NCBI GenBank assembly: GCA_021927905.1
Contig: BLLK01000076.1
Span: 1 to 59,726 of the forward strand
From: Chaetoceros tenuissimus
Taxonomy: Eukaryota; Bacillariophyta; Thalassiosirophyceae; Chaetocerotales; Chaetocerotaceae
Reading direction: 5' to 3'
Length of the DNA stretch: 59,726 nt
This document shows, piece by piece, positions 5,156-52,773 of the stretch (position 1 is the first letter of the stretch; each line of letters begins with the position of its first letter). The notes beneath the pieces were generated by a model. It was not told the origin of the DNA. It did no database searches and saw only the letters and a list, made by a program, of their open reading frames with translations. A program made the translations under genes and the position numbers.

Positions 5156-5677
5156 GGCACGCATCCTTCATTTTTGCAAGGTATCCACATTTTGCCTGCC
5201 AGGCCAGTCCTATTTGCCTCCTTTGCAATGATTGTTCGAAGAGATGATCCACCGACCTTTCTATTGTGGAAGAATACAAATGGTTTGTCATACCTTGGTA
5301 TAGGTAATGCAGGAGTATACTTTGAAACCATGTCTGGAATCTGGTCTTTCCAATATTGTAGTCTCGATTCAGCAACTTCTTTAGTGATTGTGATCGGATC
5401 TCTGTCATGTACTACTAATAGTCCAGTAGTGCTGTTGCTGGTGATTGGGTCAGAACTACTATCACGGACTACCATTTCAGTAGATACATTTGTAGTATTG
5501 CTTCTACTGGCTTTTGAAATTTGTATTTCTATCCTCGTCTTTGTTTTTTTTTCTGAAAGAGAAACTAATTCAGACTCTTTCAGAAGAAAAATGAAAATAA
5601 AAAATAAAACAAAGGAAGTTGAACAATGTCTGTTTCTTTCTTGTTGAGTTCGCTAGGCTAATCAGATTACGGAGCAT
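5156..5677 (-). pseudogene. Sulfotransferase, 5' half, cut by the CoDi insertion
   Basis: This is the minus-strand start of the gene whose fuller copy lies at 32540-33717. ATG at 5677-5675 opens a type II membrane protein (MLRNLISLANSTRKKQ). A hydrophobic stretch and a Ser/Thr/Asn-rich stem follow, then the PAPS-binding loop in FFHNRKVGGSSLRT. The match stops at KNEGCVP where the retrotransposon begins. The AT-rich region around 5530-5610 differs by indels from the right copy, so the TM part and stem are out of frame here, while the stem to PAPS loop is continuous. Protein divergence from the right copy is about 8% (9 of ~106 residues), far more than in the neighbouring transporter and J-domain genes. 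Non-functional. Confidence 0.85.
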
Positions 5678-5827
5678 TTTTCTACCAAAGAGATACCTGA
5701 GCAGATTGAAAATTTCTAGTGTTGGGGGAATAGAAATCTGTCAGTCTCAATTTCAGATCGGGGAGAGGAGTTTTATTTCTCCGAAATTTGGTCCAATCTT
5801 GATCCTCCATCCCATCTTAGGAAAGAG

Positions 5828-6028
5828 GAAGGGGGGAATGGCTCTTCTTTCCTTTCTTAGAACTCAAAAACTCAATCTCTCCATATCCGATCAGGAGAAG
5901 GGGAGAGGAAGGAAGGAAGGAAGGAAGGATTGGGATTCTAAGCAGTCGTGGAGAGAAAAAGAGCTGAAGAAGAGAGGGAAAAGGAAATGTTCGGGTATGT
6001 AAAAAACTCTCTCAGGTTGAAGTTTTCC
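5828..6028 (+). mobile_element. Dispersed short repeat (MITE-like), copy 1
   Basis: About 200-230 bp family recognised by GAGGAAGGGGGGAATGGCTC near its start, a GGAA microsatellite, GCAGTCGTGGAGAGAAAAAG, and an end with AAAACTCTCTCAGGTTGAAG. This copy lacks the usual first 20 bases and an internal TCTCTCTGA segment. It forms the outer boundary of the near-identical part of the left arm. No coding capacity. Target duplications were not resolved, so the class is uncertain. Confidence 0.7.
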
Positions 6029-6035
6029 GTCACAG

Positions 6036-7177
6036 GTGCATGGGTTTGTTCCATCGCGCAACCTAAACAATCATGAGATTCCATTGAACTACCAAAAAGA
6101 AACTTTACCAGCATCTTCAAACTTCAATTTTAATCAAAAGGTGAAAGCACAGGTAAATGGGGAATATATTCCAAACACTATTGAAGCATGTAAACTACTT
6201 CAATACGAACCTACTATGCATCTCGAGCATTCAAAGCTTGTGATGAAATTTGATCAAGCTGAAATTAAGAAAGCATACCGTCAGAAAGCCAAAGCCTATC
6301 ATCTAGATTCTAGAATTAAAATGTTGAAGGATGAAGAAAGATTCTTTCAGAAGAGCAGAAGCACATGATCAATATTGAGTTCCAACGATTAAATGCAGCA
6401 TATAGAGTTTTGAAATTCAAGGCTAACCAGTCCCCAGAGGAGAGTGCAAAAGAAGTTGTAGTTTCAAGTAAATTTGGAAGTTATAGATCTCAAGCTTACT
6501 CTGATTATCACACTGATAATGATCAACGAGTTGGTATTTGTCTAGGCAATACATCAATCAGTCCAAACAGTTTTGAACGCAAAGTATCTGCACATGAACC
6601 TCCAAGAAAGAAGGGGCCTGTTAGGGCTAGAGATGATTATTCCACAAGTAATGAAGATAGAGTGAGCCTTTATAGAACAGGAACTCAGAAACCTGTCACG
6701 CCTAAACCGAAAGCGCAACATGTCAAGAGAACAGAAAAGCACGTATCACGACAAGGCCCTCAAAAGATGGATGTCAGTGAAAAGAGAAAAGTAAATGCTT
6801 ATTCTGAGTATAACTCAAGCATTGAACAGAACGTTGGAAAATTTAGTGTGAATGATGAAATTGTGGAGAAGATGTTACGAGACCAAGAGGCAAAGGCTAG
6901 AAAGATGAAAGCAAGTATTAGCGTCGAGGAGGTTACTGAGAAATTGCAGCCAGAACCACTTGTAGAAACTCCAAGCCCTAAGTCTCCTGAGCCTTTGCAA
7001 GAGGAAAAGCCTGGCTTCTCTTATGATTTCAAAGATTATACTTCAGAGCAGACTTCATATGCAAGTGATGATGAAATTCTTCAACGACCAAATAGAAGAG
7101 TCAGTGCTTTTTCTGACTACACCACTTCAAATGATCAACGTGTTGGTCTATATGGAAGAGTTGGATCTAGTAGCTAG
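6036..7177 (+). pseudogene. J-domain-like protein with four C-terminal repeats, frameshifted
   Basis: The first frame (6036-6368) ends in a J-domain-like helix (AEIKKAYRQKAKAYHLDS). The second frame (6365-7177) resumes with the expected last J helix (FQRLNAAYRVLK), so the domain spans a frameshift near 6340-6360. The hallmark HPD tripeptide is HLD, so Hsp70 stimulation is doubtful even if the frame were intact. The C-terminal region carries four diverged copies of a motif like SDYxTSNDQRVGLY (near 6505, 6640, 6805 and 7115). The apparent start lies just after a repeat copy, so the true N-terminus may be lost. It converges with the transporter gene across 279 bp. The inverted copy at 31047-32188 has the same frameshift. 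Confidence 0.65.
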
Positions 7178-7456
7178 TATTTTTCGAAGCTACAGTTTCG
7201 GGGACCATAGGGAAAGTTTTCAAATTGGGTTTGATTGATTGTAAGAAAATAGAATTGAGAAGACTGCAATCAAACGTTTTATAGATTTACATGTTAGAAA
7301 GAATAAAGCATGAGTATCATTATAAATTAATAATATACTTTTGCTTCTACTTAAAACGAATAACTCTATTCAATAGAGGAGTGCTTTTGCTTCACTAGAG
7401 ACTTTGGATTTGATTAGGAAATAGCTAGATATTTAGATTATATATTATTCAACATA

Positions 7457-9026
7457 CTAAATTTCACGTAACTTCGATTTTCTTCCATCTTCAAGATCGA
7501 AAGAATAGGAGTCAGTGAAGCAATCGTCTACCAAGTCTTGGAGATCACGATTGTCAGAGTTTGAGAGTTTGGTGTAACGAAAAGGACCATATCGTTGTAT
7601 GTAGAATAACAATGTATCAACGTTGACACTTTTTAGGAAAAGGGCAATGATAAATATCATCATTCCTACCAAATGCATAGGTGTACATCTATTGTTCTTG
7701 AATGCAATGAAACTGATGAATAAGGTAAATGCTTTCCTTGTAGTAGAGGTGATGCTCATGGACAAGGCACCAAATCGTTTTGTGATTGCTCCTGCGCAAG
7801 ATGATCCACATAGACCAGTCAAAGTAAACAGTATAAGAACCACAATTTTGCGACTTATAGTCCAAAATATTACACTGTCTTCCTCGGATCCATCAGCGAG
7901 GTTTTGAATTTGAGGTATCGTTCCATGTCGAAGGAAAAAGTGCTGGAATCCCGGTATAAACTCTCCGCTTATTATGGTCGCAACAAGCATTGCTACAAAC
8001 GATATCGAGTAGATGACAAGTTGAAATTCATCTTGTGTAGTACGATGATTTACCATGATTAATTCAGAATAATTCGCAACAGCACCATCACATATCAACG
8101 ATACAGTCTGGATATATTGGCAAACATTGAATATTTTGTGAGATTATGAAATAATTCCTCCAAAATCAAGAAGGATAATATGAATTGAAACTTACCAACA
8201 TTGCAAGTCCTAGTGGGTGAAAGACAGTTGTTTTGGAATGCATATCTGCATTAATAAAGAGCGATAGACCTGTCACCAATAGTCCAACCATCCAATAGTC
8301 TTGTTTTGAATATGTTCTTTTTCCAATCACAATTCCACCAATCATGGTAAACATCACTCTAGAACTCTTGATGAGGGTTTTCATGGGATAATTTAAGTAT
8401 CGCATGGCAGCGTTCGTCATACCAACATCAGTAGCTCTAATCAATGATAAAGTCAGGTACAATTTGATTAAAGTCCAACGATGATTGCTGTTCTCTACAG
8501 ATGGTTTTTCTACTATAATGGAATCTGTGTTGTTGTTTGTAGGTTCAAAGACTATCGACTCATCATCAGTTATGGACTCTGTCGTCGAACTTCCACTTGT
8601 CGACACTGGACCTTCATCTCTATTCCCAATGGAGACAGGAGACATGGAAGCAGTACTCACAAGCACTAATGATGGAGAAGAATCAGAAGGTGAAGCCTCT
8701 TCTTGTGCTCTTTTTTGTTTCATATAGCATCTTAATCTGTCCAACATTGTCAAAATAAAACTCCAGAATGCATATCCTAGAAATTGACAAGTACTGAAAA
8801 ACATTGTATACTTTCTTCCAGTAATATGAACGGCAATTAATTCTTGAAGGTATCCATAGACAAGAGTAAATGAGAAAACCCCACATGCACAAACGTAAAA
8901 ATGGAAATTGGGCGAAAGATGAGAAAGGTCCATTCCAAACAAAACCAAATCTGTCAATTCTTGCTTGGAATCTAGCCTTTGACTTCTTCTTCTACGCTTT
9001 GTACTATCTTCTTCCTTGTTGAACAT
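7457..9026 (-). CDS. Nucleotide-sugar/PAPS transporter (SLC35B-like), left copy
   Basis: Two exons, complement 8196-9026 and 7457-8107, with an 88-nt intron (8108-8195) carrying GTAAGT donor and CAG acceptor; 493 residues. A Lys/Arg-rich N-terminus and about ten hydrophobic segments fit a drug/metabolite-superfamily antiporter. Sequence resembles the UAA/SLC35B2-B3 group that imports 3'-phosphoadenosine 5'-phosphosulfate into the Golgi: VYGYLQELI in the first helices, LIKSSRVMFTMIGG, SLICDGAVANYSE after the splice site, and KRFGALSMSITSTTRKAFT. A Ser-rich loop with acidic residues (about residues 110-165) interrupts the usual core. The frame stays open upstream of the chosen ATG to the edge of repeat copy 2, so the native N-terminus was probably removed. 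One codon differs from the right copy. Confidence 0.75.
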
Positions 9027-9123
9027 ATCCCTCGCTGAATTATTTTTTCCAGATGGTGTTCTACTTCTACGGTGTAATTTACTTGGTGTGATTCGAAGAA
9101 CATCGTCTTCGTCTTGACTTTCG

Positions 9124-9345
9124 GTTTAATGTGAGGGGAGAGGAAGGGGGGAATGGCTCTTCTTTCCTTTCTTAAGAACTCAATCTCTCCATATCCGATC
9201 AGGAGAAGGGGAGAGGAAGGAAGGAAGGAAGGATTGGGATTCTAAGCAGTCGTGGAGAGAAAAAGAGCTGAAGAAGTCTCTCTGAGAGGGAAAAGGAAAT
9301 GTTCGGGTCTGTAAAAAACTCTCTCAGGTTGAAGTTTTCCGGTCT
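9124..9345 (+). mobile_element. Dispersed short repeat (MITE-like), copy 2
   Basis: This is a complete-looking copy starting TTTAATGTGAGGGGAGAGG and ending in CTCTCTCAGGTTGAAG. It is in the same orientation as copy 1, so the J-domain/transporter pair lies between direct copies. It abuts the N-terminal coding frame of the transporter. Confidence 0.75.
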
Positions 9346-9950: not shown

Positions 9951-12518
9951 ATGACCAACTGTCTTTCTAGACTACTTTTCACCACACTTCTTTATTGCAT
10001 TAGCATCCTTTCTTTTTTTCACAACAAAATTACTCAAGAAGAGTATGTCAACAAGAGGAAAGCTCTGAGACAACTGAAGAAAAGCTTTCAGTCTAGCCAC
10101 TATGTAAAAGAGAAAAATCGACCCGATTCTATGAAAGTCATGATCGAATCAGTCAAGTCATATCAGACTACTCGAAAACTAAACCAAGATGGAATGGAAG
10201 CAGATGATGAGCTTTCAAAATCCCAAAAGATCATCGAGAGCGCAGTAAAAAAATACATTCCAAACAATTTTAAAGACACAGTTCAAAATATAGATAGTAC
10301 GGATGTTGACTCTGTCTGTGCATTACTATTCTTTGGTCTGGGAAGGAGTTTCAAAGAGAAAGCTTTTCCAAGCATACACAAGTATTTGCTGCAAGTAAAC
10401 CATTCCTGTAAAGTTTTTGTGCATACATATGATGTAGCGAACGAAAAGGGGACCCATATCAATGCAAGGGAGCTTTCCCTACTAACTGATGACGCTTCAA
10501 GCATCATCTTCGAAACTGAGGAAGAATTTCGTTCCCAACATAATTTGACTCTTTTCCACAAATATTTCCCAACAAATGTAAATAGTAATAATTGGAAATT
10601 TCCAATAAGTATAGACAACATGATACGACAATGGCATTCTATTGAGAAGGTTTGGAAGTTGATGTTAAATTTCGAGAATAATCGTCAGCTAAAGTTTCTT
10701 CGTGTTGGCTTCTTCCGTCCTGATGTCATCTATACACATCCCATTTCAATTGTAGATCAAAATGAACCTGCAGTTATTCCGTCTATGATGTATTTCTCTC
10801 AACAGAATGGATGGAATGGACTTAATGATCGGATGTTTTATGGAACTCGCAAATACGGTGAAGTTTGGGCAACACAGCGTTTTTGTAACATTGAAAATTA
10901 CATTCAATGGCAGCAAAGCGAAATAAGCCATATCCGACATGGTTTGAGAGGTCTGCATTCAGAGGATTTCATGAAATATATTTTGACAACGAAAGGACGT
11001 CTTCCATTACAGATAAAAAATATCTGTTTTAAACGCGTTCGTTCCAATGGCGATGTACTTCATTGTGACTGCAGATATTTGGAATCAGATAATGGTAATG
11101 AATATGGCAAGACAGAGGTACTAGTAGATCTTAGATTGAATACTGCCCCCGGAGTAATTATTCTTGGAATGCAAAGATCTGGAACATCCCTACTTGCAGG
11201 TTTGCTATCTCATGCCTTTTCATGGAATGTACCGGGACAAGTAGATGATAGTAGCAACTACAACAATATAAGATCTCGAAGTTCTTATCAGAATGTTCAT
11301 GTTGTACAGCAGAACGAAGAATGGATGAAATCTCAAAATGTTACTTGGGATAATATTAAGAGTGACAATGACCAGCTTGTAGCGCGGACTTTTGACGTGA
11401 ATCTAGCTACAAAAATCGGTATACATGGTCAGAAGGCACTGGATTTGTATAATAATGGTGCATACACCCCATGGCTAATGAATGATCCACGACTGTGCTT
11501 CACACTCGGTGCATGGATACCTTTACTCGAGTCTGAATTCTACCCACCGCCTGTTATATTCATGTATCGCAACCCTCTTGAAATAGGATTGATTCGTCAA
11601 GCAAAAGCACAACACACCATATCATTGCTGGAAAGCTTTTATTTGTGGATACTACATAACAGAGAAGCAATCAGGCTTACTCAAGACATTGATATTTGTC
11701 GAATAGCAACAAGGTTAGAAATATCTATTCCAGTCAATTTTATTTTGTTTATGCATCTCATTTTTCTCCGTCATGTGTAAAGTCATGATATTCTCTTTAG
11801 GAAACCAGAGCAAGAGCTACTAAGATTGCAAGATGAGTTGATGAGATGTGGGTTGCATTCTCGTAGTTTTAAGCTGGATGAGATTACGAAGGAGCTTTTA
11901 GACGGATCATCTTCTGAACAATGGAATGTTTCACGCAATTCGAGAGAAGAAGTCAATGGAGATGAAACATGTGACTTTATTCCGTTTCAAAATACGGGTG
12001 CTGCATCGAGTAACGCATCCATTGCAGCAATGGAGTCAAAAATGTATGATATTACCATGAAAATATACTGCGACTTGAAGTCAAGCAAAGCATTCGAAAG
12101 AAGCTATTTGTGGCCAGATATGCCCCAAGTAATAAGGTATGAATCACTTCTTATAGCTTGATATTAAACCTATCAATCTTCTTACACTATTTTACAAAGT
12201 GACGAAACACAGTCTAGATATTCGAACATGATAAGGAGGGAGAACTTAGTTAGTGAAGAAAGAAGTCTGTCGAAGGGGCCTGCGTACAGTTCCCATTGGA
12301 AAGACTTTTCGAAATATGAACGAGAAGCTGCGAAAACATTGGGTTTTACAAAGAAAATGTGGGATAAAGGTGCATGGCCTGGAGGATTGGACTCGAAGTA
12401 TTGGAATATGCTGGAGTCGGGGGAACAGGCTGCTCTTGAAAGGTTAGGATACTTGCAAAGTACATGGGATATTGCAATAACTAATGATGGAATGAACAAA
12501 AGAATTTTCCAAGAATAA
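9951..12518 (+). CDS. Glycosyltransferase-like/sulfotransferase two-domain Golgi protein
   Basis: Three exons rebuild an uninterrupted protein of about 805 residues: 9951-11713, 11801-12136 and 12200-12518. Introns of 87 and 63 nt have GTTAGA/TTTAG and GTATGA/AAAG borders, both splitting an AG|N codon. An N-terminal signal anchor (residues about 5-24) is followed by a basic stem. A glycosyltransferase-like domain follows (about 118-340; starts CALLFFGLGRSF, contains FLRVGFFRPDVIY and GLNDRMFYG), seen in many algal and plant proteins. Next is a sulfotransferase domain with a PAPS loop GMQRSGTSLLAG (about 407) and MYRNPLEIG (about 540). The C-terminus after the last intron is Trp/Lys-rich. It has no truncation, so it is probably one of the working genes. 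It would add sugar and sulfate in the Golgi; substrates are unknown. Confidence 0.78.
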
Positions 12519-13176: not shown

Positions 13177-13800
13177 CTAAATGACGAGTTTGTTTTGTTT
13201 CGGGTCAGTGCAATTAAAAACGCCTTCTTCACCCAGTCGAGTTTTGCGATTGCTCTTAAATGCATTGATTGTTCCTTCTAGAGTAAAACACACTCCAAGT
13301 TTGAATTCCTCCAATACCATACTTGCCAGAAGGGGGCTCATCAGTGGTGTGAGCAATCCAATGCTCATAGTAGTACCTTGTAATATTTGCATTTTAGCCA
13401 TAACGCCTCCTCCCCCTGGTTTAGCTACAAGCGGGCGCTCAATTGGTGCTTCCAATCTAGTGACATAAGATGATCGCACCCAAATGTAGTTAAAATACAC
13501 ATACCCCCACGAGTAATCGTAAAACCTGCCTTTTCTAATTGAGGGACAGTCTTAAAGCGAAACAATACATCTCTCCATGGCTCAATTACATATTTAAACA
13601 ATGGTCCATCAGTTGCTGCTCTCTTTGCTTCTGTCATATTTCCATGGTTGACCATTCCTTTACTATGCATGTAAAGAAAAACAGAGTCTTTCCTCTGTTG
13701 AGGATTCTGGGACATGGCTTTTTCCCACATAGAATGCAGCCCCCAGTACTCATATCGATTTTCATAACGGGGTGTGACAGTGGCACTAGTGCCACCAATT
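13177..13800 (-). pseudogene. Glycosyltransferase-like fragment with HSKG motif, frameshifted
   Basis: Minus-strand coding remnant. From about 13800 it reads RYENRYEYWGLHSMW, then FLYMHSKGMVNHGN and LFKYVIEPWRDVL. The frame then shifts by one base near 13490 and resumes as YFNYIWVRSSYVTRLE and PIERPL. The HSKG and FNYIWVRSSYV elements are typical of a glycosyltransferase-like domain found in stramenopile and bacterial surface-glycan proteins. The N-terminal part is missing: at 13801 the sequence switches to another gene on the opposite strand. The tail after PLVAKPGGGG is not recognisable. Confidence 0.55.
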
Positions 13801-15787
13801 TGGAAGCAAATATGAGCAATGGATGCGATCATCAAATTTTCTTGGTGACCATAGTATCAAAGAGGTTCGACGTCATGGAACTTGCTTTTTCCAATTTGTG
13901 ACTGATGTCGATCATACGGGAGACCTTCTATCATCAGATGGTTCTCAGCGGCTCATTGTGATTGACCCATCTAGAATGCCATACAAGAACAACCGTCGGA
14001 ATACAAAAATCTTGAAGCTGAATCCTGGTCTACTCTTCCCTTGGGCTGATAGAGTGATTTGGCAGGATGCTAAACTTCTTCAATCGAATCATGGTAATAT
14101 GCCTTCGCCCCGTGGTTTACCAAGCGATTACTTACTACACTTCAATCGTACCGTTGGTCGCTATGGTGTTTGCTCAAGCTACATGGGATTGCCTCCTGAT
14201 AAAGCTTCTGTTGGAGACTCCTCGACAGTCAGTTTTAAAGCTCATTGCGAGGCTATTATTGCTGCTGCTGAGAAGAGACCTACTGTATCTGATGATCTCG
14301 AAACTCTACGACTCCAGTGTCAACACTACGAGGAAATGCATAGTAATGAAGCACTACAGTCGAGTCAGGTATTTTACAATCAGCATCCACTTGTTGATAC
14401 TGCCTTCATCGTTTATGATATGCGTAATTCAACCTGCCGAAAATTTAATGGAGATTTTGGGTGTTCATGGCTCAGTGAAATATTTTGTTTCTCCGACCGA
14501 GATCAGATTTCATTTCCACATGTACTAGCAAGCTCAGGGTTGAGGCTTTCTCCTCATATGCAAGTTACTGGTCAAGAATATCGCGACCGCATATATATTA
14601 ATGAAAATCAAAGACCTATGTTACACATTGCAAAGAGAAGCTGCCATTGGTACTATAGGAGCTTTTCTCGATGTATAGCAAGTTCCAACACGCATATTGA
14701 TGAGGAAATGATCAAGGACAACGAGACTACACCAACGACCACCACAACGTCAACATAACTGAGAGTTGCTGTGATTGTAGCGGGTACTTTGAATAGGTTC
14801 ATTTTTGATTCTGCTCTGAAAAATTTGATAAAACCTATGAAAAAAAGAGCATCCGTTGACTATTATGTGTCACTAAGCACCGCTCGAATGAAAGCTTACA
14901 GGTCAGACTCAGGATACACAGACCGCCTTCAGCCAGATCCCACACTACCTTCTTCTTCTGTTGAAGATTTTGTTGATATAGAGGAATATATACGAACCAA
15001 AATTGCCAGTCTGTCCTCGTCTGTAGGTGCCGTGAATTTGCAGAAATCTGTTGATATCGATTCTGAGCCAATGCTTATCGCTAGAAGAGAAAGAGCCCTA
15101 GAAGAGAACCCAGACGAAGATCCAGACTCAAGATTTCCTATCATTGACAATAGAAACGCTGCTATATCGCAAAGGACTGCAAATGCAAATAGGAATCTTT
15201 TGAGGTTGCACCTAGCTATACAGAGTTTGTGGAAGACTGCCACCAATTGGGAAAACGAAGAAGGTTTTAAATACGATTATGTCATGTTCCTTCGTGACGA
15301 CTCTCTCTGGTTGAAAGAGTTTGACATACGCAATCTTGTAGCTAAAGGTGGAGACATTTTCATCCCTGCATGTGATGCAAGGGATCCTCCTTTACAACCA
15401 AGTGAAATAAATGACCATATCCTAATTTCGCGACGTGACACTGCAGACGTATTTGGAAATTACTATTCAGAACTATTGAAAAGAGATGTCAAGGCTTGCA
15501 TGAAACGACTTCCAGATGATCTGACAAAAGGTGGAAGGCGTGGATGCAATAGTGAAATGTTACTGAAATGGATAGTGGACGAAAGAAACATAACTGTCAC
15601 CAAACTTGGACAAAGTAAGCTACCCTTTCAGCGCTCTGCAAATGTAAAGTTACCGGATGGATCGAATGTTCCATGTTTCCATAAGTTTTGCCAAAGTCGA
15701 AAGCACCCCTTGACTTTCACAAATGAGTCGAATGGAATGAAAATGTGCAAACATATCGATTGGAAGCAGGTTTTGGACATAAAATAA
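13801..15787 (+). pseudogene. DUF616 (TOD1/MUCI70-like) protein, 5'-truncated copy with internal stop
   Basis: This is a copy of the full-length gene at 50173-52773. Homology begins abruptly at 13801 (TGGAAGCAAATATGAGC), corresponding to residue about 206 of the intact 866-residue protein, so the membrane anchor and first part of the DUF616 domain are absent. A stop (TAA, 14756-14758) replaces the Lys codon in the Thr-rich linker between domains; the same frame reopens at once and runs to 15787. Protein similarity to the full copy is very high otherwise. The DUF616 part shows RHGTCFFQFVTD and FSDRDQISFPHV; the C-terminal part shows YVMFLRDDSLW. Non-functional as it stands. Confidence 0.85.
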
Positions 15788-16049
15788 ATGTATTTGAAAG
15801 TGTAAATGTTTTTGCTGCTTCAATCCACAATATATAGACTATGTAGTATTGTAATGTTTATTATCGATAGCCAATTAGAGTCATGAAAGTCGTTGCTAGA
15901 TAAACTTCTCCAGTTGTTATTAGAACCTCCTCGAGAAGAGAGCTAAAGCCCCGTTCCTTTTCGGTAGCCTACTAGTCTAGCATTTCGAGCTTGCTATGAA
16001 GATCTAAACTTCTTCTGACCGGATCGAGAACATCATTATGAGGAGAACT
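15788..16049. other. 3' flank of DUF616 copy and junction to a sulfotransferase fragment
   Basis: No gene is seen. The stretch includes a segment (about 15920-15995) whose reverse complement resembles the repeat at 16797-16865, with shared GAGGAGGTTCTA and GGGGCT..TAGC blocks. The whole stretch, with the end of the gene before it, recurs inverted at about 44434-44814. Confidence 0.6.
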
Positions 16050-16592
16050 CATCAATTGGAACTTGCGAAAGGGCAAACTGTTTCCTATCACAAGTTAGAT
16101 GATTCCTATCCATTCTTCGATTGTATAACAAACATTCGACCCACTATTGATAGAGTTGTTAGTTGTTGGAACTATAGAATGACAGTAGAGATGGACACCC
16201 TGCATTTGCCTTCCTCTGATTCATTGACACCTAAAGACTGGAATAATCTTCTACCCGTTGCAATGGATAAGCACAACAATGGTTGCAACAACGAGTACGC
16301 TCGCATTTTTGGAAGTACAGCTCATGAGAGTGAGATCAACTCGCTGTCTCCTAGCAAACCTGACTTCCTACAAGAGTTTGAAAACATTGTCTCAAGAATG
16401 TCTCGGTGTGCCATTGTGCATATCAATCGTTGTGAGGATAGTAACAAGATTCTTCATCATTTCGTGCCTTGGATGAGTATGGCAGATAAGTGTGGCACCC
16501 ATGAGAAGAATTCCAATAGTACAGGAGGACTTTCGGAAGAGGCTACAGAAGTCATTCTTGAATTAGAATTACATGGACGAATTGTTATTTAG
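16050..16592 (+). pseudogene. Sulfotransferase, 3' half only
   Basis: This matches the last ~180 residues of the gene at 32540-33717, from KGQTVSYHKLDDSYP to the shared C-terminus LELELHGRIVI, with only a few substitutions. The PAPS loop (5' half) is missing. The ATG at 16038 belongs to fused upstream sequence, not to the gene. The segment keeps the 3'-phosphate-binding-like strand TNIRPTIDRVVSCWNYR. It lies about 11 kb from, and on the strand opposite to, the CoDi-cut 5' half at 5156-5677, so the two pieces cannot form one transcript. Confidence 0.85.
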
Positions 16593-17721: not shown

Positions 17722-17867
17722 TTGAACCTCAGATATTACGATTTCTGTACTATGATTTACGTTTGCACTTGGACATCATGAGATATTGGAGTGAATTGAA
17801 GTGTTCCCTTTCCCCATCGGCGAGAGCAGATAGCTAACCTTCTTTCTAACAGACTATGATATCTCGA

Positions 17868-36943: not shown

Positions 36944-37139
36944 TATGGAGAAGTAGAGAAAGGAGATGGTGGTTGTGCGATGAAAACGTAAAATATGATC
37001 AGTAAAAATAGAAATGTCAATTGAGATACTGTACCGGTGTGCTTGAGATGTCGAGTGAAGTAATGAGGAGTAGAGTGTTCCGAAAAGAAATCGAGTATTT
37101 TGCACAGTCCTAAAGTTTCAGAAAACTCATCCTCACCGG

Positions 37140-39929: not shown

Positions 39930-41030
39930 AAAGTCTGGACTTTGGACTTTGGACTTTGGACTTTGGACTTTGGGCTTTGCCTCAAAGTAGACCTAGCAAG
40001 CGTTCACAACGACTTAAAGCTAAAGAAAACTCATCATCAGCGATTTGGACTTTGGACTGTGGACTTTGGACTTTGGACTTTGCCTCAAAGTAGACCTAGC
40101 AAGCGTTCACAACGACTTAAAGCTAAGGGAAACTCATCATCAGCGATTTGGACTTTGGACTGTGGACTTTGGACTTTGCCTCAAAGTAGACCTAGCAAGC
40201 GTTCACAACGACTTAAAGCTAAGGAAAACTCATCATCAGCGATTTGGACTTTGGACTGTGGACTTTGGACTTTGCCTCAAAGCAGACCTAGCAAGCGTTC
40301 ACAACGACTTAAAGCTAAAGAAAACTCATCATCAGCAATTTGGACTTTGGACTGTGGACTTTGGACTTTGCCTCAAAGTAGACCTAGCAAGCGTTCACAA
40401 CGACTTAAAGCTAAAGAAAACTCATCATCAGCGATTTGGACTTTGGACTGTGGACTTTGGACTTTGCCTCAAAGTAGACCTAGCAAGCGTTCACAACGAC
40501 TTAAAGCTAAAGAAAACTCATCATCAGCGATTTGGACTTTGGACTGTGGACTTTGGACTTTGCCTCAAAGTAGACCTAGCAAGCGTTCACAACGACTTAA
40601 AGCTAAAGAAAACTCATCATCAGCGATTTGGACTTTGGACTGTGGACTTTGGACTTTGCCTCAAAGTAGACCTAGCAAGCGTTCACAACGACTTAAAGCT
40701 AAAGAAAACTCATCATCAGCGATTTGGACTTTGGACTGTGGACTTTGGACTTTGCCTCAAAGTAGACCTAGCAAGCGTTCACAACGACTTAAAGCTAAAG
40801 AAAACTCATCATCAGCGATTTGGACTTTGGACTGTGGACTTTGGACTTTGCCTCAAAGTAGACCTAGCAAGCGTTCACAACGACTTAAAGCTAAAGAAAA
40901 CTCATCATCAGCGATTTGGACTTTGGACTGTGGACTTTGGACTTTGCCTCAAAGTAGACCTAGCAAGCGTTCACAACGACTTAAAGCTAAGGAAAACTCA
41001 TCATCAGCGAGTGGAGTTGTAGAGTGAAGC
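39930..41030 (+). repeat. Tandem array B, 96-bp period, about eleven units
   Basis: The core is CCTCAAAGTAGACCTAGCAA .. GCTAAAGAAAACTCATCATC. The linker is a run of TTTGGAC/TGTGGAC heptamers, longest at the left edge (39935-39975). The period is 96 bp across most units, with unit-to-unit identity near 99%, indicating recent expansion. Two frames stay open for more than 320 codons only because 96 is divisible by three. Confidence 0.93.
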
Positions 41031-42204: not shown

Positions 42205-43110
42205 GTAAAATAAATAAGTTGCTTCAAAGTAATCCTAGCCAACGTTCAGTAACGAATATAGCTAAAGAAAACTCATCATCAGCGATTGTAGATTGTAGAT
42301 GCCTCAAAGTAGACCTAACAAGCATTTATAGCAAGCCAAGAAGACTCATCATTAGCGGGTAGATTGACGATTGACGATTGACGATTGACGATTGACAATT
42401 GACAATTGTAGATTGTAGATTGACGATTGTAGATTGACGATTGTAGATTGACGATTGTAGATTGACGATTGTAGATTGACGATTGTAGATTGACGATTGT
42501 AGATTGTAGATGCCTCAAAGTAGACCTAGCAAGCGTTCATAGCAAGCTAAGAAGACTCATCATTAGCGAGTAGATTGTAGATTGTAGATTATAGATTGTA
42601 GATGCCTCAAAGTAGGCCTAGCAAGCGTTCATAGCAAGCTAAGAAGACTCATCATCAGCGGGTTAGAGTGTAAATAAAAGTTTGCCTCAAAGTAAACCTA
42701 GCAAGCGTTCACAACGACTTAAAGCTAAAGAAAACTCATCATCAGCGAGTAGAGTTGTAGAGTTGTAGAGTTGTAGTTTTGCCTCAAAGTAGACCTAGCA
42801 AGCGTTCACAACGACTTAAAGCTAAAGAAAACTCATCATCAGCGAGTAGAGTTGTAGAGTTGTAGAGTTGTAGTTTTGCCTCAAAGTAGACCCAGCAAGC
42901 GTTTATAGCAAGCGAAGAAGACTCATCCTCAGTGGGTTAGATGGTAGATAAAAGTTTTGCCTCAAAGTAGACCTAGCATGTTCATATAAGAAACGAAGGA
43001 AAACTCATCATGGACGAAATTGAAAGAAGATTACAGCAATGCTTCAAAGTAGACCTAGCAAGTGTTCATAACAGACGAAGGAAAACTCATCATTGACGAA
43101 ACTGGAAGGA
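42205..43110 (+). repeat. Tandem array C, same core with varied linkers
   Basis: About nine diverged units of the array-B core separated by GATTGAC/GATTGTA heptamers (42355-42605) or AGTTGTAG octamers (42755-42875). The unit length varies with linker expansion. Confidence 0.85.
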
Positions 43111-44870: not shown

Positions 44871-45065
44871 AGTTCTACAGCCTCGGCATCTCTGTACGGC
44901 CTCTTCAATTCATCAACCATTAATTTCATGACAACAGACCTGCTAGCCTCCTTTCTCTTTCTCGCACCTGCTTTTGCCGTTTCTGTCTGACCAAGTGTTT
45001 TAAAGTGATCTCGTAATTCGTAATGACTTTAGAAATGATGCATACCAAAGTCTCCGCCTAGACTC
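44871..45065. other. Short unassigned stretch, possible gene remnant
   Basis: On the minus strand the bases about 44870-45000 read as plausible coding sequence (KLMVDELKRPYRDAEAVEL), without a start and interrupted upstream. I could not assign it. Confidence 0.25.
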
Positions 45066-45755
45066 ATCAAGAAATACAAAGGGAGGGAAATACAAGTACA
45101 ACTTCAAATAGTAATCGTGATGATGCAGAGAAAAGCGCAGACCTACCAGAACTAGATCGAAAAATACAACCTGAACTAAAGAAGGAAGAAACAAATCACC
45201 CCTCAAAATTCACCTCATTGGAAAAGATAGATCCGATTTTGGTAGATGAAGACACTAATTCTGAAAAAATCAGTGAATTGGAATTTTACACCACCATCCA
45301 CAATTCAGAATTCCCTGCCGAAAAAGCTGGAGAGTGGATTTACAGACCCGACGCTCGAGCTAATAACCCTTCAAAGGAACATTTACATTGTCTTGATCAA
45401 GAACGTCAGGGAAATTGTCATGATCCAGATGCATGGAAAAGTACCAATGACACAGCAAAACTGAGCAGATACAACTCGATGGCCGCAAAGGCAATTTCAA
45501 ACAGCCCCGGAATTCTTTCCGGTGACGATCCTTGGATGTGGCAATCAAAACTGCCGCAATATCGTATCTTATTATTTAAAGATCGCAATTTGTACGCAAA
45601 ACAGGTAGGAAAAGCTCTTCATAATAGGAAGATTTACCTCGTTGGAGACAGTCTTACTAGACAGTGGAGTCAATCCATGCGATGTGAACTTATCCACGTA
45701 CTCAGAATGTCACCGGAGGGCGAGTGAAAAAGTTAGATATCTTCAGGCACTTTAG
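45066..45755 (+). pseudogene. PC-esterase-like gene, truncated duplicate
   Basis: Inverted duplicate of the middle of 18424-19839, from the stem (EIQREGNTST) through the catalytic GDSLTRQWSQS. It lacks the membrane anchor. At about 45718 a two-base loss (GGAGGGCGAGTG versus GGAGGACGCCAGTG) shifts the frame, and homology ends at TATCTTCAGG. The acidic/Cys blocks and the C-terminal DxxH are absent, so it cannot be catalytic. Confidence 0.85.
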
Positions 45756-46025: not shown

Positions 46026-47744
46026 CTAATATTTTTTTAGAATTTCAGACAGAATGAACTTGGCTTCCATCTGTGAAATCTTCTCCATTTCGTGTTCATA
46101 ATGGCTAAAGTCTGGTGCGCTATCCCACACAGGGTCAATGAGAAAGCTAGTATCAATGAATGAGACTGGCACGAGTGTTGTATTCCTGCTCTCTTGTTTA
46201 GAGAAACCATCCGCAATATCGTGAAGTATTTTGTTTGCAATCTCAGCATTGATAGGAGTCCGAAAATCACGTGGAGGGCACGATCTACGGTCCCACCCCA
46301 TTCCACATGCGTGGGCGGACCTTAACAGGATCCTTTGGAGAGGGGATTTTATTCTGAAAGACTCTCGTTGGAGGAATCTCACTGACTCTGTCAAAGCATT
46401 TTGCCACTCAGTAAAGTTGACATTTGTCCAACCCGCTTCTAATCGTTTGAAACTGAAAGGCCATTGAAACAATCCTAAAACAATATGGGTACACCCCATT
46501 TTGCCAAGGTCCCAAGACTCAGATTTTCCAACTGTATTGGGATAACTTTCACGCATCATGGAGCATCCAATGGGCGCATTTGCTAGCTTCTCAGTACCGT
46601 TAAAGTGCACCTTAAGATTTCCCAAACAATTATTTTTTAGTACTCTTGAATGGCTAGCACCTAAGAAACAGACTTCAACTTTCTTCCCTGTGGCAAGTCT
46701 TCGCTGATGTTGTTCTAAAAGCGTACCTAAACCAGGTTGGTTGAGTTCTGCATCTGGTCCTGAATCATTCCAGAGAAAGTTGTAATCATTGAAGGGCTTC
46801 AAGCGATCTTCATTGAATTGTTTGCAATACCTGCTTGGTTTATTGGTCCTTTTTCTACACGATTCGGGTTGAAATCGTGTGAAGACTGGCGTTGGTTGTT
46901 CAAGTAGAGGACCATTGCTACTAAACTTGTTGATGTTGTGCCTCAATTGATGCTGATCGGAGAGGACACTCTTGTGTAACCACCTCCCCCTGACCTTCTT
47001 GTTTTCCAACCTTTGATGAAAAAGGTTGACTGCAATTGAGGCGTTATTTTTGCTTGTGATGAGGCCGTTTTCATCCGTCCTGTCTGCAAGGCACACAGTC
47101 ATGAGGTTCAAGCTTGATTGGAAGCCTTCTTCATATTTCTCGCACAGCAAAAGCAGGATTTCCACATGGTAATTGCCAGACTTTGGCATGTGAAAGAGAT
47201 CATAGGTCCCTACTACAACATCATCAATGACATCCTCAAAATTGATCATTGACAAAGACCATCCAGATATCCGTCCCTTGAAGACAGGGCTATGGCAACT
47301 TCGCTGAGGTTTTAAATGAATTTCAATGCGAGATTTTATTGGAATGTGAAGAATCTGCAAAATGTCGGAGGTGACATAGCTATAATAGTGGTTTGAGGCG
47401 ATGTTCTGCGCTGATGATTTGATGTCATCATGATTTTTTGGCTTTACTGTTCTTGCCTTGGCAACTGAATCCAATTGAGAGATGCTTGGAGGAATTGAAG
47501 ATTCCTGTCCATCCTCAGCATCAGTTTGATTGTCACCAGGTGCAGCTGCTGCTGCAACTGCATCTAGTTGAATTTTCATCATCTTTTCCTTCTTTGTTTT
47601 GGCGTTTTTTGGCTCAGTTGGCACATATCCTACTTTGGTATTTCTACTGCTGACTTCAAACAGGGTATAACACACCAAGATTATGCACACGAAGATCAGC
47701 AATGCACTGATTTTCTTCCGATTTGTCCTCAGTTTGCTAATCAT
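46026..47744 (-). CDS. SGNH/NXPE-like membrane protein, possible glycan acyltransferase/esterase
   Basis: Intact frame of 572 residues. MISKLRTNRKKISALLIFVC begins a type II anchor, followed by a Lys/Glu-rich stem. A beta-rich domain (about residues 140-250: IEIHLKPQRSCHS, DLFHMPKSGNYHVEI) resembles the filamin/Ig-like part of NXPE and related proteins. The C-terminal SGNH-like hydrolase domain begins with CFLGASHSR (block I, about residue 357), continues with THIVLGLFQWPF, and ends with DFSHYEHE as candidate Asp-His block (about 548). Such proteins modify polysaccharide acyl groups. The start is supported by the anchor. The upstream region contains the repeat at 47846-48060, about 100 bp from the ATG. 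Confidence 0.7.
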   Translation of the reverse strand: MISKLRTNRKKISALLIFVCIILVCYTLFEVSSRNTKVGYVPTEPKNAKTKKEKMMKIQLDAVAAAAAPGDNQTDAEDGQESSIPPSISQLDSVAKARTVKPKNHDDIKSSAQNIASNHYYSYVTSDILQILHIPIKSRIEIHLKPQRSCHSPVFKGRISGWSLSMINFEDVIDDVVVGTYDLFHMPKSGNYHVEILLLLCEKYEEGFQSSLNLMTVCLADRTDENGLITSKNNASIAVNLFHQRLENKKVRGRWLHKSVLSDQHQLRHNINKFSSNGPLLEQPTPVFTRFQPESCRKRTNKPSRYCKQFNEDRLKPFNDYNFLWNDSGPDAELNQPGLGTLLEQHQRRLATGKKVEVCFLGASHSRVLKNNCLGNLKVHFNGTEKLANAPIGCSMMRESYPNTVGKSESWDLGKMGCTHIVLGLFQWPFSFKRLEAGWTNVNFTEWQNALTESVRFLQRESFRIKSPLQRILLRSAHACGMGWDRRSCPPRDFRTPINAEIANKILHDIADGFSKQESRNTTLVPVSFIDTSFLIDPVWDSAPDFSHYEHEMEKISQMEAKFILSEILKKY

Positions 47745-47845
47745 TATTCCTTTTTTTTGCTAGTAATATGATAAAAGTGCTAAGTAGGGGAATGAATGTA
47801 CATTACTATGAATTATGAACAGTAATGTGGATTTGTGATGCGAGA

Positions 47846-48060
47846 GCAGAAGACAGTAGCTTGGGTAGGAGACGTTTTCTTTCTCAAAAGGGAGGCATCA
47901 ATAAGACCTTGAATCAAAATGTCAAGATCTAGATCAGGATCGCCGAATTTCGGATGGCCTGGAGGAATTGTCACTTTTTTGGAAATTGGAGAAATGTCTC
48001 GGTTTCACCCGACTGCCTTAGAAGAGGGAGAACTTTTCATGATGACCCGAACAGGCCCTT
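47846..48060 (+). promoter_or_regulatory. Upstream repeat of the SGNH gene
   Basis: Near-identical to 52909-53122: GCAGAAGACAGTAGCTTGGG, AAGATCTAGATCAGGATCGC, GTTTCACCCGACTGCC, CATGATGACCCGAACAGG. Each copy lies 100-140 bp before a minus-strand glycan gene start, same orientation. It could be a mobile repeat that brings promoter elements or a conserved regulatory block. Confidence 0.6.
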
Positions 48061-49054
48061 TAGAGGAGATAGAGAGAGGAAAAGAATTTTATGATCTTTT
48101 TAAAATGACCCGAGGGCCCTTTCCAAGACTGAAGTTCAAGAGTTCATGATTCTCTCAGAGGCTTCTCCCTTCTTGAACCCTGATCAGAAGAGGATCTTTC
48201 TATTAATGACCTGAACACTTCAACCATTTCTTTTTCCCAAGAGATTACCTTTTTCTCCTCAGGGAATCAGAGTTTTTTTAAAGACCCGAGCACTTCAACC
48301 ATTTATTTTTTCCCAAGTTAGCTATTAGAACCCTTCCAGGGAAGGAGAACGAGAGGAATTCTCTTAAAAAGAGATAGAAAAGGTCTCCCTGACGTCATCT
48401 TTGGACTCCAATGCTAGCTAGTCATTGGATTCTCATGAATATGCCATCTGATCCAACTGCTTTGTCCATCCAACTTTTCCGAAGTTCTTATTCTCGTATA
48501 TTGAAAGAGATGCTGACATGCACTGTAGAAATGGTTTTGACAGTGAAGGATCCCATCAACAATCAGACTGTATTACTTGTCCACAGTGGTGGAAGGCATA
48601 AACCTGGCGAAAAGATTGGAGGGATGTCACGTAATGGTTTGTCCTAAATTTCATAGAGACGCAGTTTGGCCATCAAAGATGAATCCATCGAGACAGCTTT
48701 GGGAATATCGACAATACATTGAAAAAGACGTCTATAACAGAGCGCTTTACAATTAACCTGAAGGACCAAGATTTACAAAATCTCATGTCATTGGATCAAG
48801 TGAAAGAAAGATATTAACAGCACGACTCTGGAATTAGGTTTCAACTTCAAGGTGTTGGAGCCGACATCGTCATTCCATTCAAGCAGAAGCAACCGAGTAA
48901 ATGGTACTGATAAGTTCAAATTACTGGGTCTTGTCACTTGCTACGTAGATGGATCCATAATTTTCATCAGAGTGCTTTGAAAAGAAAGTCTCTCACTTCA
49001 TTATATAGAAGACACAGTGGATTTACGCGGCCCGGTAACATTTATTCGTCATAA
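48061..49054. other. Repeat tail and possible degenerate gene
   Basis: 48061-48360 holds several copies of GACC(T/C)GAACACTTCAACC-like sequence. From about 48500 to 48750 the plus strand reads protein-like in shifting frames (for example VKDPINNQTVLLVHSGG and CPKFHRDAVWPSKMNPSRQL), but stops and frame changes prevent a gene call, and the family was not recognised. The remainder to 49054 shows nothing. Confidence 0.3.
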
Positions 49055-50150: not shown

Positions 50151-50172
50151 AGATCGACAATTTCAAATACAT

Positions 50173-52773
50173 TTACTTTATTTCAAAGACCTTTTTCCAA
50201 TCGATTTGTTTGCATATTTTTATTGCATTCGACTCATTTGTGAAAGTCAAGGGGTGCTTTCGACTTTGACAAAACTTATGGAAACATGGAACATTCGATC
50301 CATCCGGTAGCTTTACATTTGCAGAGCGCTGAAAGGGTAGCTTACTTTGTCCAAGTTTGGTGACAGTTATGTTTCTTTCGTCCACTATCCATTTCAGTAA
50401 CATTTCACTGTTGCACCCACGCTTTCCACCTTTTGTCAGATCATCTGGCAGTAGTTTCATGCAACCCTTGACATCTTTCTTCGATAGTTCTGAATAATAA
50501 TTTCCAAATACGTCTGCAGTGTCACGTCGCGAAACTAGGATATGGTCATTTATTTCACTTGGTTGTAGAGGAGGATCCCTTGCATCACATGCAGGGATGA
50601 AAATGTCTCCACCTTTAGCTATAAGATTGCGTATGTCAAACTCTTTCAACCAGAGAGAGTCGTCACGAAGGAACATGACATAATCGTATTTAAAACCTTC
50701 TTCCTTTTCCCAATTGGTGGCAGTCTTCCACAAACTCTGTATAGCGAGATGCAACCTCAAAAGATTCCTATTTGCATTTGCAGTCCTTTGCGATATAGCA
50801 GCGTTTCTACTGTCAATGATAGGAAATCTTGAGTCTGGATCTTCGTCTGGGTGTTCTTGTAGGGCTCTTTCTCTTCTAGCGATAAGCATTGGCTCAGAAT
50901 CTATATCAATAGATTCCTGCAAATTCACGGCACCTACAGACGAGGTCAGACTGGCAATTTTGGTTCGTATATATTCCTCTATGTCAACAAAATCTTCAAC
51001 AGAAGAAGAAGGTAGTGTGGGATCTGGCTGAAGGCGGTCTGTGTATCCTGAGTCTGACCTGTAAGCTTTCATTCGAGCGGTGCTTAGTGACACATAATAG
51101 TCAACGGATGCTCTTTTTTTCATAGGTTTTATCAAATTTTTCAGAGCAGAATCAAAAATGAACCTATTCAAAGTACCCGCTACAATCACAGCAACTCTCG
51201 GCTTTGTTGACGTTGTGGTGGTCGTTGGTGTAGTCTCATTGTCCTTGATCATTTCCTCATCAATATGTGTGTTGGAACTTGCTACACATCGAGAAAAGCT
51301 CCTATAGTACCAATGGCAGCTTCTCTTTGCAATGTGTAACATAGGTCTTTGCTTTTCATTAATATATATGCGGTCGCGATATTCTTGACCAGAAACTTGC
51401 ATATGAGGAGAAAGCCTCAACCCTGAGCTTGCTAGTACATGTGGAAATGAAATCTGATCTCGGTCGGAGAAACAGTGTATTTCACTGAGCCATGAACACC
51501 CAAAATCTCCATTAAATTTGCGGCAGGTTGAATTACGCATATCATAAACGATGAAGGCAGTATCAACAAGTGGATGCTGATTGTAAAATAACTGACTCGA
51601 CTGTAGTGCTTCATTACTATGCATTTCCTCGTAGTGTTGACACTGGAGTCGTAGAGTTTCGAGATCATCAGATACAGTAGGTCTCTTTTCAGCAGAAGCA
51701 ATAATAGCCTCGCAATGAGCTTTAAAACTGACTGTCGAGGAGTCTCCAACAGAAGCTTTATCAGGAGGCAATCCCATGTAGCTCGAGCAAACACCATAGC
51801 GACCAACGGTACGATTGAAGTGTAGTAAGTAATCGCTTGGTAAACCTTTGGGCGAAGGCATATTGCCATGATTCGATTGAAGAAGTTTAGCATCCTGCCA
51901 AATCACTCTATCAGCCCAAGGGAAGATTAGACCAGGATTCAGCTTCAAGATTTTTGTATTCCGACGGTTGTTCTTGTATGGCATTCTAGATGGGTCAATC
52001 ACAACGAGCCGCTGAGAACCATCTGATGATAGAAGGTCTCCCGTATGATCAACATCAGTCACAAATTGGAAAAAGCAAGTTCCATGACGTCGAACCACTT
52101 TGATACTATGGTCACCAAGAAAATTTGATGATCGCATCCATTGCTCATATTTGCTTCCAAGAGCAGCTCCGTAGACTACTAATTCTTTGCACTTGCTTGC
52201 AAACTTCTTTGCAATATCTTCTTGTAATTCTCTCAAATATTCTGCATTGTCTCCACAAAGCCCACAAGAGCGCTTATAGGAAGCAGAACTGAAAATAGAG
52301 CGATGTGGATCCTTCATACATGTACCATCCAATATCCAGGGAACATTCTTCTCTGGTGAATGGCATTGTATTTTCGGTGCCACTCCTACTGCTTGTCTCA
52401 AGAGTGTTGATGTAGATACATTTCGAGACACCATGCTTTTCATATCATGCTCCTTACTCTCTGTATGATTGCTACTGGAAGAAGAAGAATCATACAAACG
52501 TTGCTTTTGAAGTAAGTCGAAATGAGCTTCTCTACTGGAAAATACATGCTGTCGCTGATTCTTCATCGACATGCTGTCCTTGTCTGGGGCTTTGATAATG
52601 TTGGCACTGACAATCTTTAGGTCTAAGGCGATAGAAATGTTGAGAATAATTGTTAGGAACAAAAGGAGTAACATTCCCAATAGGATCAATTCAATTTTCT
52701 TCATCTTTCGCTTCTTCATCTTTCGTATCTTCATATTTGATTGGGAATGAATATAGGCATTGTTGTGCGTCAT
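50173..52773 (-). CDS. DUF616 (TOD1/MUCI70-like) two-domain glycosyltransferase-like protein
   Basis: Intact frame of 866 residues. A basic tail is followed by a membrane anchor (IELILLGMLLLLFLTIILNI, about residues 27-46) and a Ser-rich stem. The DUF616 domain (about 195-470) reads CKELVVYGAALGSKYE, RHGTCFFQFVTDVD, RVIWQDAKL and WLSEIHCFSDRDQISFPHV, as in plant MUCI70/TOD1, Golgi proteins needed for pectin and mucilage structure. A Thr-rich linker precedes a second domain (about 515-866) with RVAVIVAGTLNRF and YVMFLRDDSLW, where DD may be the nucleotide-sugar site. Met14 is an alternative start that also keeps the anchor. It is the only full-length copy here; fragments lie at 13801-15787 and 44434-44814. 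Confidence 0.8.
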   Translation of the reverse strand: MTHNNAYIHSQSNMKIRKMKKRKMKKIELILLGMLLLLFLTIILNISIALDLKIVSANIIKAPDKDSMSMKNQRQHVFSSREAHFDLLQKQRLYDSSSSSSNHTESKEHDMKSMVSRNVSTSTLLRQAVGVAPKIQCHSPEKNVPWILDGTCMKDPHRSIFSSASYKRSCGLCGDNAEYLRELQEDIAKKFASKCKELVVYGAALGSKYEQWMRSSNFLGDHSIKVVRRHGTCFFQFVTDVDHTGDLLSSDGSQRLVVIDPSRMPYKNNRRNTKILKLNPGLIFPWADRVIWQDAKLLQSNHGNMPSPKGLPSDYLLHFNRTVGRYGVCSSYMGLPPDKASVGDSSTVSFKAHCEAIIASAEKRPTVSDDLETLRLQCQHYEEMHSNEALQSSQLFYNQHPLVDTAFIVYDMRNSTCRKFNGDFGCSWLSEIHCFSDRDQISFPHVLASSGLRLSPHMQVSGQEYRDRIYINEKQRPMLHIAKRSCHWYYRSFSRCVASSNTHIDEEMIKDNETTPTTTTTSTKPRVAVIVAGTLNRFIFDSALKNLIKPMKKRASVDYYVSLSTARMKAYRSDSGYTDRLQPDPTLPSSSVEDFVDIEEYIRTKIASLTSSVGAVNLQESIDIDSEPMLIARRERALQEHPDEDPDSRFPIIDSRNAAISQRTANANRNLLRLHLAIQSLWKTATNWEKEEGFKYDYVMFLRDDSLWLKEFDIRNLIAKGGDIFIPACDARDPPLQPSEINDHILVSRRDTADVFGNYYSELSKKDVKGCMKLLPDDLTKGGKRGCNSEMLLKWIVDERNITVTKLGQSKLPFQRSANVKLPDGSNVPCFHKFCQSRKHPLTFTNESNAIKICKQIDWKKVFEIK

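Follow-up and report, generated by a model that had tools for sequence, protein, structure and literature searches.

A candidate gene cluster for Golgi glycan assembly behind shared upstream blocks in the diatom Chaetoceros tenuissimus

The window analysed here is a whole contig of the diatom Chaetoceros tenuissimus (C60; 59,726 bases), in which an earlier note, made from the sequence without database searches, had seen clustered machinery for a sulfated, acylated glycan, and in which genes of several glycan-enzyme families lie behind homologous upstream DNA. Pfam scans were run directly on 18 of the 37 stop-to-stop open reading frames (ORFs) of the window, the others being copies, antisense frames or unscanned, and genome searches covered 41,027,912 bases in 68 contigs. 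The genes and gene fragments are as follows, with lengths in amino acids (aa) or nucleotides (nt), GT for glycosyltransferase, ST for sulfotransferase and the basis of each assignment in brackets.

5143–5652, minus strand: truncated copy of the ST32-type gene, which probably starts at 5677 in a different frame (inverted repeat I4, 95%)
6029–7177, plus strand: J-domain-like passenger gene, cut within its signal peptide and frame-changed relative to a copy on contig C19
7457–9026, minus strand: UAA-family (SLC35B-like) transporter, 493 aa, one intron (Pfam UAA, scanned with the spliced inverted copy)
9951–12518, plus strand: probable GT-ST fusion, 805 aa, exons 9951–11713, 11801–12136 and 12200–12518 (GT-like N-part, sulfotransferase-like C-part)
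13790–15787, plus strand: TOD1/MUCI70 pseudogene that lacks the N-terminus and has an in-frame stop at 14756 (repeat and copy comparison)
16008–16592, plus strand: C-terminal fragment of the ST32 type (sequence comparison)
18424–19815, minus strand: PC-esterase (TBL/NXPE-like), open frame intact (Pfam)
20804–22138, minus strand: Gly_transf_sug glycosyltransferase, 444 aa (Pfam)
22754–24069, plus strand: sulfotransferase-like gene ST22, possible intron 23226–23275 (Sulfotransfer_2 under cut-off)
26213–27195, plus strand: sulfotransferase-like gene ST26, frame change near 26416 (best PDB match)
29198–30767, plus strand: second, inverted copy of the UAA transporter (inverted repeat; one mismatch in 1570 nt)
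31047–32195, minus strand: second copy of the J-domain-like passenger (inverted repeat)
32540–33717, plus strand: sulfotransferase-like gene ST32, ambiguous frame change after the membrane anchor (weak match to ST26)
45062–45727, plus strand: truncated PC-esterase copy, pseudogene (copy comparison)
46026–47744, minus strand: type-II membrane protein of unplaced family, the 46026 gene (N-terminal anchor)
50173–52773, minus strand: TOD1/MUCI70 glycosyltransferase, 866 aa (Pfam)

Placement of most of these genes in families by profile search held for four of the families, namely UAA (PF08449: E 6.3e-39, 134.4 bits against a cut-off of 26.2, spliced 493 aa), PC-Esterase (PF13839 in 18424–19971: E 2.6e-13, 51 bits against 27), Gly_transf_sug (PF04488 in 20804–22180: E 1.5e-11, 45.2 bits against 23) and TOD1_MUCI70 (PF04765 in 50173–52860: E 2.5e-9, 37.3 bits against 21.4), the last presumably the DUF616 of the earlier note, whereas the sulfotransferases stayed under their cut-offs and the 46026 gene found no family. 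The best PDB match of the UAA protein was SLC35B1 (E 1.3e-10), which provided the sole PDB matches up to E 0.01; a resemblance to SLC35B2/B3, the transporters of 3'-phosphoadenosine 5'-phosphosulfate (PAPS), is presumed. The two PAPS-transporter-like genes proposed earlier are of the UAA family but one gene, duplicated together with its neighbour in a 3206-nt inverted repeat (5969–9174 and 29050–32255; 100% complementary as reported, the gene itself having the one mismatch given above). That neighbour was labelled J-domain-like by eye from AEIKKAYRQKAKAYH and had no Pfam match under E 0.2. The proposed set of at least three GT-like genes survives as the Gly_transf_sug and MUCI70 genes at 20804 and 50173, both over cut-off, and the MUCI70-like N-part of the 9951 gene, whereas the frame at 13790–15787 is a pseudogene. 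As for the two SGNH/PC-esterase genes, that at 18424 passes the Pfam cut-off but the 46026 gene gave no Pfam match up to E 5 and no PDB match up to E 10.

The 9951 gene is probably a GT-ST fusion, because its N-part resembles the C-half of MUCI70 (E 3e-5) and its C-part matches Sulfotransfer_3 below the cut-off (PF13469: E 1.1e-4, 22.9 bits against 27; 23.6 bits for the copy on contig C34). ST22, whose two frames are joined in our model by one 50-nt GT-AG intron, matched Sulfotransfer_2 below the cut-off (PF03567: E 0.011, 16.3 bits against 22) and gave no meaningful PDB sequence match. The best PDB sequence match of ST26 was heparan sulfate 2-O-sulfotransferase (E 0.023), and ST32 weakly matched ST26 (E 0.043) and had one chance-level PDB match; neither ST26 nor ST32 gave a Sulfotransfer_2 or other Pfam match up to E 5. 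Possible PAPS-binding-like motifs (5'-PSB and 3'-PB) were read by eye in the sulfotransferase-like genes, ST32 included. At least four sulfotransferase loci, as counted in the earlier note, are retained as sub-threshold matches or motifs at 9951, 22754, 26213 and 32540, but its loci at 5156 and 16050 both proved to be fragments of the 32540-type gene. All five full-length enzyme models have a single hydrophobic stretch close to the N-terminus and no stronger one further on, and the N-terminal frames of ST22, ST26 and ST32 likewise carry a hydrophobic anchor; such single N-terminal anchors fit Golgi type-II enzymes.

Genome-wide profile searches, the counts of which are lower bounds, located all 16 matches of PF04765 on five contigs (C12, C21, C24, C34 and C60), hereafter the cluster contigs; at letter level the clusters of C21 and C34 were examined in part and those of C12 and C24 in small part. 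PF13839 gave 7 matches at 5 loci, three of which lie inside cluster loci, PF08449 gave 25 at 20 loci (3 inside clusters, of which the one in the C34 cluster is really a Nuc_sug_transp gene), PF13469 gave 22 at 19 loci (2 inside) and PF04488 gave 23 at 18 loci (2 inside). Within 48 kb, C60 holds 5/5 of these tested families, the C34 cluster four, the C21 cluster three and any other place at most two, and among 20,000 uniform random placements none reached five families in 48 kb and 31 reached four; this null is simple because of the duplicates, and the contrast is nevertheless large. The clustering of the five families tested exceeds chance within this genome, and to that extent the earlier claim of unusual density stands, since no other 48-kb stretch of this genome outside the cluster loci approaches it (maximum 2 against 5). 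Several non-homologous pathway-type enzyme genes are thus linked beyond chance, which is one of the marks of a eukaryotic biosynthetic gene cluster. A stretch of C34 (L065, C34:1206064–1213000), picked partly for its weak UAA match, holds GT61-type frames in three tandem units spaced by 1225 bases together with a Nuc_sug_transp gene, so that the clusters contain further glycan genes.

Comparison of the 600 nt ahead of each gene revealed two homologous blocks, R1, common to the UAA, PC-esterase and ST32/ST5 genes (ST5 being the 5143 copy) and partly to ST22, and R2, common to MUCI70, the 46026 gene and ST26.

5824–6028, plus strand: R1 copy, 147 nt upstream of where the 5143 gene probably starts
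9122–9340, plus strand: R1 block of 219 nt, 96 nt before the UAA gene (minus strand); the GT-ST start (plus strand) lies 611 nt off on the other side
19923–20128, plus strand: R1 copy, 108 nt upstream of the PC-esterase gene
22596–22693, minus strand: partial R1 copy, 61 nt upstream of ST22
28496–29102, minus strand: R1 copy interrupted by a 396-nt stretch (28646–29041), 96 nt upstream of the second UAA copy
32196–32424, minus strand: R1 copy, 116 nt upstream of ST32
25826–25961, plus strand: R2 copy, 252 nt before ST26
47844–48069, minus strand: R2 block, 100 nt before the 46026 gene
52907–53124, minus strand: R2 block, 134 nt before the MUCI70 gene

The seven R1 matches of the window (two of them the halves of one copy) put its near edge, at six gene ends and always in the same orientation, 61–147 nt upstream of the start, and the homology of both blocks ends before the coding sequence, 60–150 nt ahead of the start or about 250 nt for ST26. 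Relative to the start codons, UAA [-315,-94] is 95% identical to ST32, UAA [-300,-97] 92% to PC-esterase, ST22 [-124,-61] 92% to PC-esterase, the 46026 gene [-317,-86] 97% to MUCI70 and ST26 [-387,-252] 88% to the 46026 gene. From -559 to -86 the 46026 gene is moreover similar (95%) to the upstream region of a MUCI70 copy on C12, so that one upstream region precedes two different genes. Genome-wide, 16/16 R1 matches (C60 7, C21 5, C34 2, C24 1, C12 1) and 21/21 R2 matches (C21 10, C60 4, C34 4, C12 2, C24 1) fall on cluster contigs, and in the cluster stretches examined R2 stands directly upstream of nine MUCI70 copies. R1 lies between UAA and GT-ST on C60 and between PC-esterase and GT-ST on C34, and on C60 the PC-esterase with its R1 adjoins the 3' end of Gly_transf_sug. 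The first account of this cluster overlooked the shared upstream blocks and drew part of its gene count from duplicates and fragments.

Both R1 and R2 carry a motif, ACCCGAACA (TGTTCGGGT), that is the sole 9-mer present in the 400-nt upstream regions of 9/9 gene types; its 10-mer form occurs in 8/9, ST32 having the 9-mer with one mismatch to the 10-mer. In 200 trials with random sets from the same contig, the maximum was 4/9 for 9-mers, 6/9 for 8-mers and 4/9 for 10-mers. Exact copies lie at -185 to -376 from the start, mostly near -300, and the extended motif GAAGTGTTCGGGTCWTTA, with up to 3 mismatches, gave 19 matches against 0.06 expected. The exact 10-mer occurs 31 times in 181,331 cluster bases (duplicated segments counted) and 0 times in 28,133 control bases (a small sample, partly repeats), and R1 and R2 carry it on different strands with respect to the gene. 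The nine occurrences are not nine independent events, because some are homologous through R1 or R2; we count about five contexts (R1, R2, GT-ST, Gly_transf_sug and ST22), which still share some homologous stretches.

Fragments, pseudogenes, a clear passenger gene, a near-identical inverted repeat, retroelement-like ORFs at the contig ends and many repeat copies on the same contigs are what a hot spot of segmental duplication would leave behind, and it is possible, if somewhat improbable, that the locus is such a hot spot, with the shared upstream blocks as by-products of ectopic recombination that imply no joint regulation or product. Against this, R1 stands directly upstream and in the same orientation at 6/6 near gene ends (four gene types, GT-ST at 611 nt uncounted), the motif common to all nine gene types is restricted in position, and the placeable genes are glycan-related save for the passenger, the unplaced frames and the retroelement-like ends. 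The hot-spot explanation also fits poorly with selective constraint on two of the gene types. Tests of changes unique to one of three copies each gave, for GT-ST, ratios of nonsynonymous to synonymous changes (dN/dS) of 0.50 in the C60 copy (P 0.018), 0.19 in the C34 copy and 0.27 in the C21 copy, all with P ≤0.018, and, for PC-esterase, 0.20 in the C34 and 0.22 in the C21 copy (P ≤0.00015), the C60 copy having one change only. The GT-ST and PC-esterase copies are under constraint. Across the 91 pairs of 14 MUCI70 copies the median dN/dS is 0.43, and 13/14 copies are without a stop in the aligned span.

The origin of the transporter genes illustrates how the cluster may have grown. A segment of another contig (C19:309155–312264) holds a J-domain-like gene and a UAA gene with 95% identity to the C60 segment; there the J-domain-like copy begins in a signal-peptide-like manner and the UAA frame extends to a methionine 98 codons ahead of the C60 start position, whereas both N-termini are cut in C60. 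The C19 copy is without an R1 match but the C60 segment adjoins R1 at both ends. Because of the cut N-termini and the flanking R1, the transporter segment was most likely captured into the cluster from a C19-like locus. A C19-like segment between two direct R1 copies and a repeated R1 edge, GGTTTAATGTGAGGGGAG, at UAA, PC-esterase and ST32 would also be in keeping with R1 and R2 being parts of an unrecognised gene-capturing mobile element, the glycan bias then being accidental or selected later; Pack-MULEs and Helitrons are known to capture genes. We regard this as quite unlikely, given that no terminal inverted repeats were seen (alignment, by eye) and that the 16/16 and 21/21 matches are confined to cluster contigs, unlike those of a dispersed element.

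It is therefore proposed, with about as much belief as doubt, that the window holds a young, still-shuffling and probably co-regulated gene cluster for Golgi glycan assembly in Chaetoceros. Unrelated genes would have been brought behind the shared blocks R1 and R2, which bear TGTTCGGGT some 300 nt upstream of the start codon; the blocks may act as promoters that drive co-expression of the genes behind them, and recombination in or beside them may allow genes to be recruited or exchanged. The MUCI70-type and Gly_transf_sug glycosyltransferases, the GT-ST fusion and the sulfotransferase-like proteins would be single-pass type-II enzymes that assemble and sulfate polysaccharide, and the single-pass type-II PC-esterase and the UAA-type transporter would complete the set. 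The predicted product is one or a few decorated polysaccharides, secreted or at the surface, that would be sulfated, probably acyl-modified and possibly uronate-containing. Sub-threshold sulfotransferase matches and a UAA-family transporter, a candidate PAPS carrier, are suggestive of sulfation, and the one intact PC-esterase gene points to acylation. The glycan-enzyme cluster of the earlier note is supported by the family placements, clustering, anchors and the GT61 and nucleotide-sugar transporter genes of C34, but its suggestion of a frustule-associated product drew no support.

Several observations weigh against this proposal. No sulfotransferase passes its own Pfam cut-off; no GT-AG intron joins the frames of ST26, and 34 possible GT-AG intron combinations make those of ST32 ambiguous, a Nanopore homopolymer error being a possible cause of the frame changes. 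Only 2/10 MUCI70 branches are significant at 0.05 (8/10 are not), and the Gly_transf_sug copies show a dN/dS of 1.04 at a very low divergence (dS 0.014). The UAA gene has dN/dS values against C19 of 0.155 in exon 1 and 0.019 in exon 2 (1 against 14 changes), but the passenger, broken in C60, still shows 0.089; low UAA ratios were rejected as proof of function since that of the broken passenger is similarly low, and, as much of the divergence may predate the capture, they cannot demonstrate present use. The GT61 and transporter stretch on C34 has no exact copy of the motif. Finally, C60 is small, ends in retroelement-like ORFs and comes from an assembly processed with HaploMerger2, so that sequencing reads would have to back both the number of copies and the near-identical inverted repeat.

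A more specific product was also considered. An excerpt of PMC7896085 reports that Chaetoceros secretes a fucose-containing sulfated polysaccharide (FCSP), localises it on the cells of C. socialis and proposes it as a contributor to carbon sequestration; the clustering here of sulfotransferase-like and GT genes would suit a dedicated FCSP cluster. However, the ORFs scanned (18/37 window ORFs and part of the other clusters) included no fucosyltransferase and nothing of a GDP-fucose family, for which reason FCSP is not claimed as the product, and Arabidopsis MUCI70 is described as a rhamnogalacturonan galacturonosyltransferase (PMC10576798, in part), which hints at uronic acid. An FCSP cluster thus seems to us very improbable. 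According to the section seen of PMC11468063, true fucans in diatoms are an open question, and an algal sulfotransferase phylogeny includes genes of two other diatoms (PMC4659905, in part). In the open-licence PMC literature we found no paper pairing 'Chaetoceros tenuissimus' with 'sulfotransferase' and no title or abstract opening on such a diatom cluster, and the terms sulfotransferase, glycosyl and polysaccharide are absent from the C. tenuissimus genome paper and virus-transcriptome paper.

With regard to the surroundings of the genes, retroelement-like ORFs probably explain the assembly break at both ends of C60; an NCBIfam search of four contig-end ORFs returned nothing over cut-off.

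1429–5076: retroelement-like ORF at one contig end (RVT_2 Pfam match)
53568–59561: retroelement-like long ORFs at the other contig end (without Pfam match)

Tandem arrays at 37120–37734, 39948–41010 and 42359–43108 consist mostly of 96–97-nt units with 7–8-nt sub-repeats, and stretches beside them match contigs C39, C22 and C19. A 258-aa frame at 16999–17775, with no Pfam match, has several partial copies in the C21, C34 and C60 clusters, and a tRNA-like sequence at 28295–28365 (TAGCTTAGTCGGTAGAGCGC...GTTCGATCCCC) received no call from ARAGORN. A subtelomeric location was not supported: of the 69 exact matches to four-fold TTAGGG, none falls on C60, C21, C24 or C12 and those on C34 lie at 4.13 Mb, and the cluster on C34 sits in the interior of that contig (1.2 Mb of 4.46 Mb). 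A viral origin found no support either, as scans of viral contigs with MUCI70, GT-ST exon 1 and PC-esterase, by which close relatives only would be detectable, found none. The C21 and C34 clusters might be alleles of one locus: they have two MUCI70 pairs of low divergence (dS 0.010 and 0.018) and similar spacing, but no C34 match was obtained for C21:160–165 kb, the single stretch tested. Contig C39 ends in 1127 bases that recur without change at C21:160001–161127, a possible assembly branch point beside the C21 cluster (L064, C21:160001–165000).

The linked candidates (glycosyltransferases, sulfotransferases, one PC-esterase and one transporter) share a cis-motif and form a short list that could be tested by co-expression and knock-outs. 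Promoter capture as a route of gene recruitment in a eukaryotic cluster would also gain a concrete example from the unrelated genes that follow the same blocks. Bacterial capsule and O-antigen loci consist of exchangeable modules of glycosyltransferases and decorating enzymes, and the likeness to them is one of working, in that module exchange could diversify a surface sugar; unlike theirs, the diatom genes are eukaryotic, contain introns, have upstream regions of their own and encode proteins of Golgi-type topology. A full analogy, which we consider unlikely, would have R1 and R2 serve as shared promoters and at the same time as points of recombination that recruit any gene behind them, as with the C19-like transporter, and continually re-assort glycosyltransferases, sulfotransferases and acyl-modifying enzymes; the surface glycan would thereby be diversified, viruses or bacteria being examples of what might exert the pressure. 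Fungal and plant biosynthetic gene clusters are physically linked non-homologous enzyme genes, and the diatom locus resembles them in this linkage and in its candidate joint regulation, but differs in its Golgi glycan enzymes, in the homologous upstream DNA on unrelated genes and in having several cluster copies in one genome. With Arabidopsis MUCI70/RGGAT1 (PMC10576798, in part) the diatom protein shares the TOD1_MUCI70 domain, here over the Pfam cut-off, whereas it, a predicted glycosyltransferase, has 866 aa and a C-half like the GT-ST N-part and is encoded in multiple copies. Also from stramenopiles is a conserved five-gene region of brown algae, comprising GFPP/FK, a sulfotransferase, an alpha/beta hydrolase, an ankyrin protein and an unknown gene, in which a sulfotransferase gene is likewise linked to a sulfated-polysaccharide gene (PMC11468063, in part). 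The gene sets differ, with no GFPP/FK among the ORFs scanned, and the shared upstream blocks of the diatom cluster have no mention in the excerpt of that source; orders of brown algae have kept their region conserved, but the genes of the diatom cluster are duplicated and shuffled.

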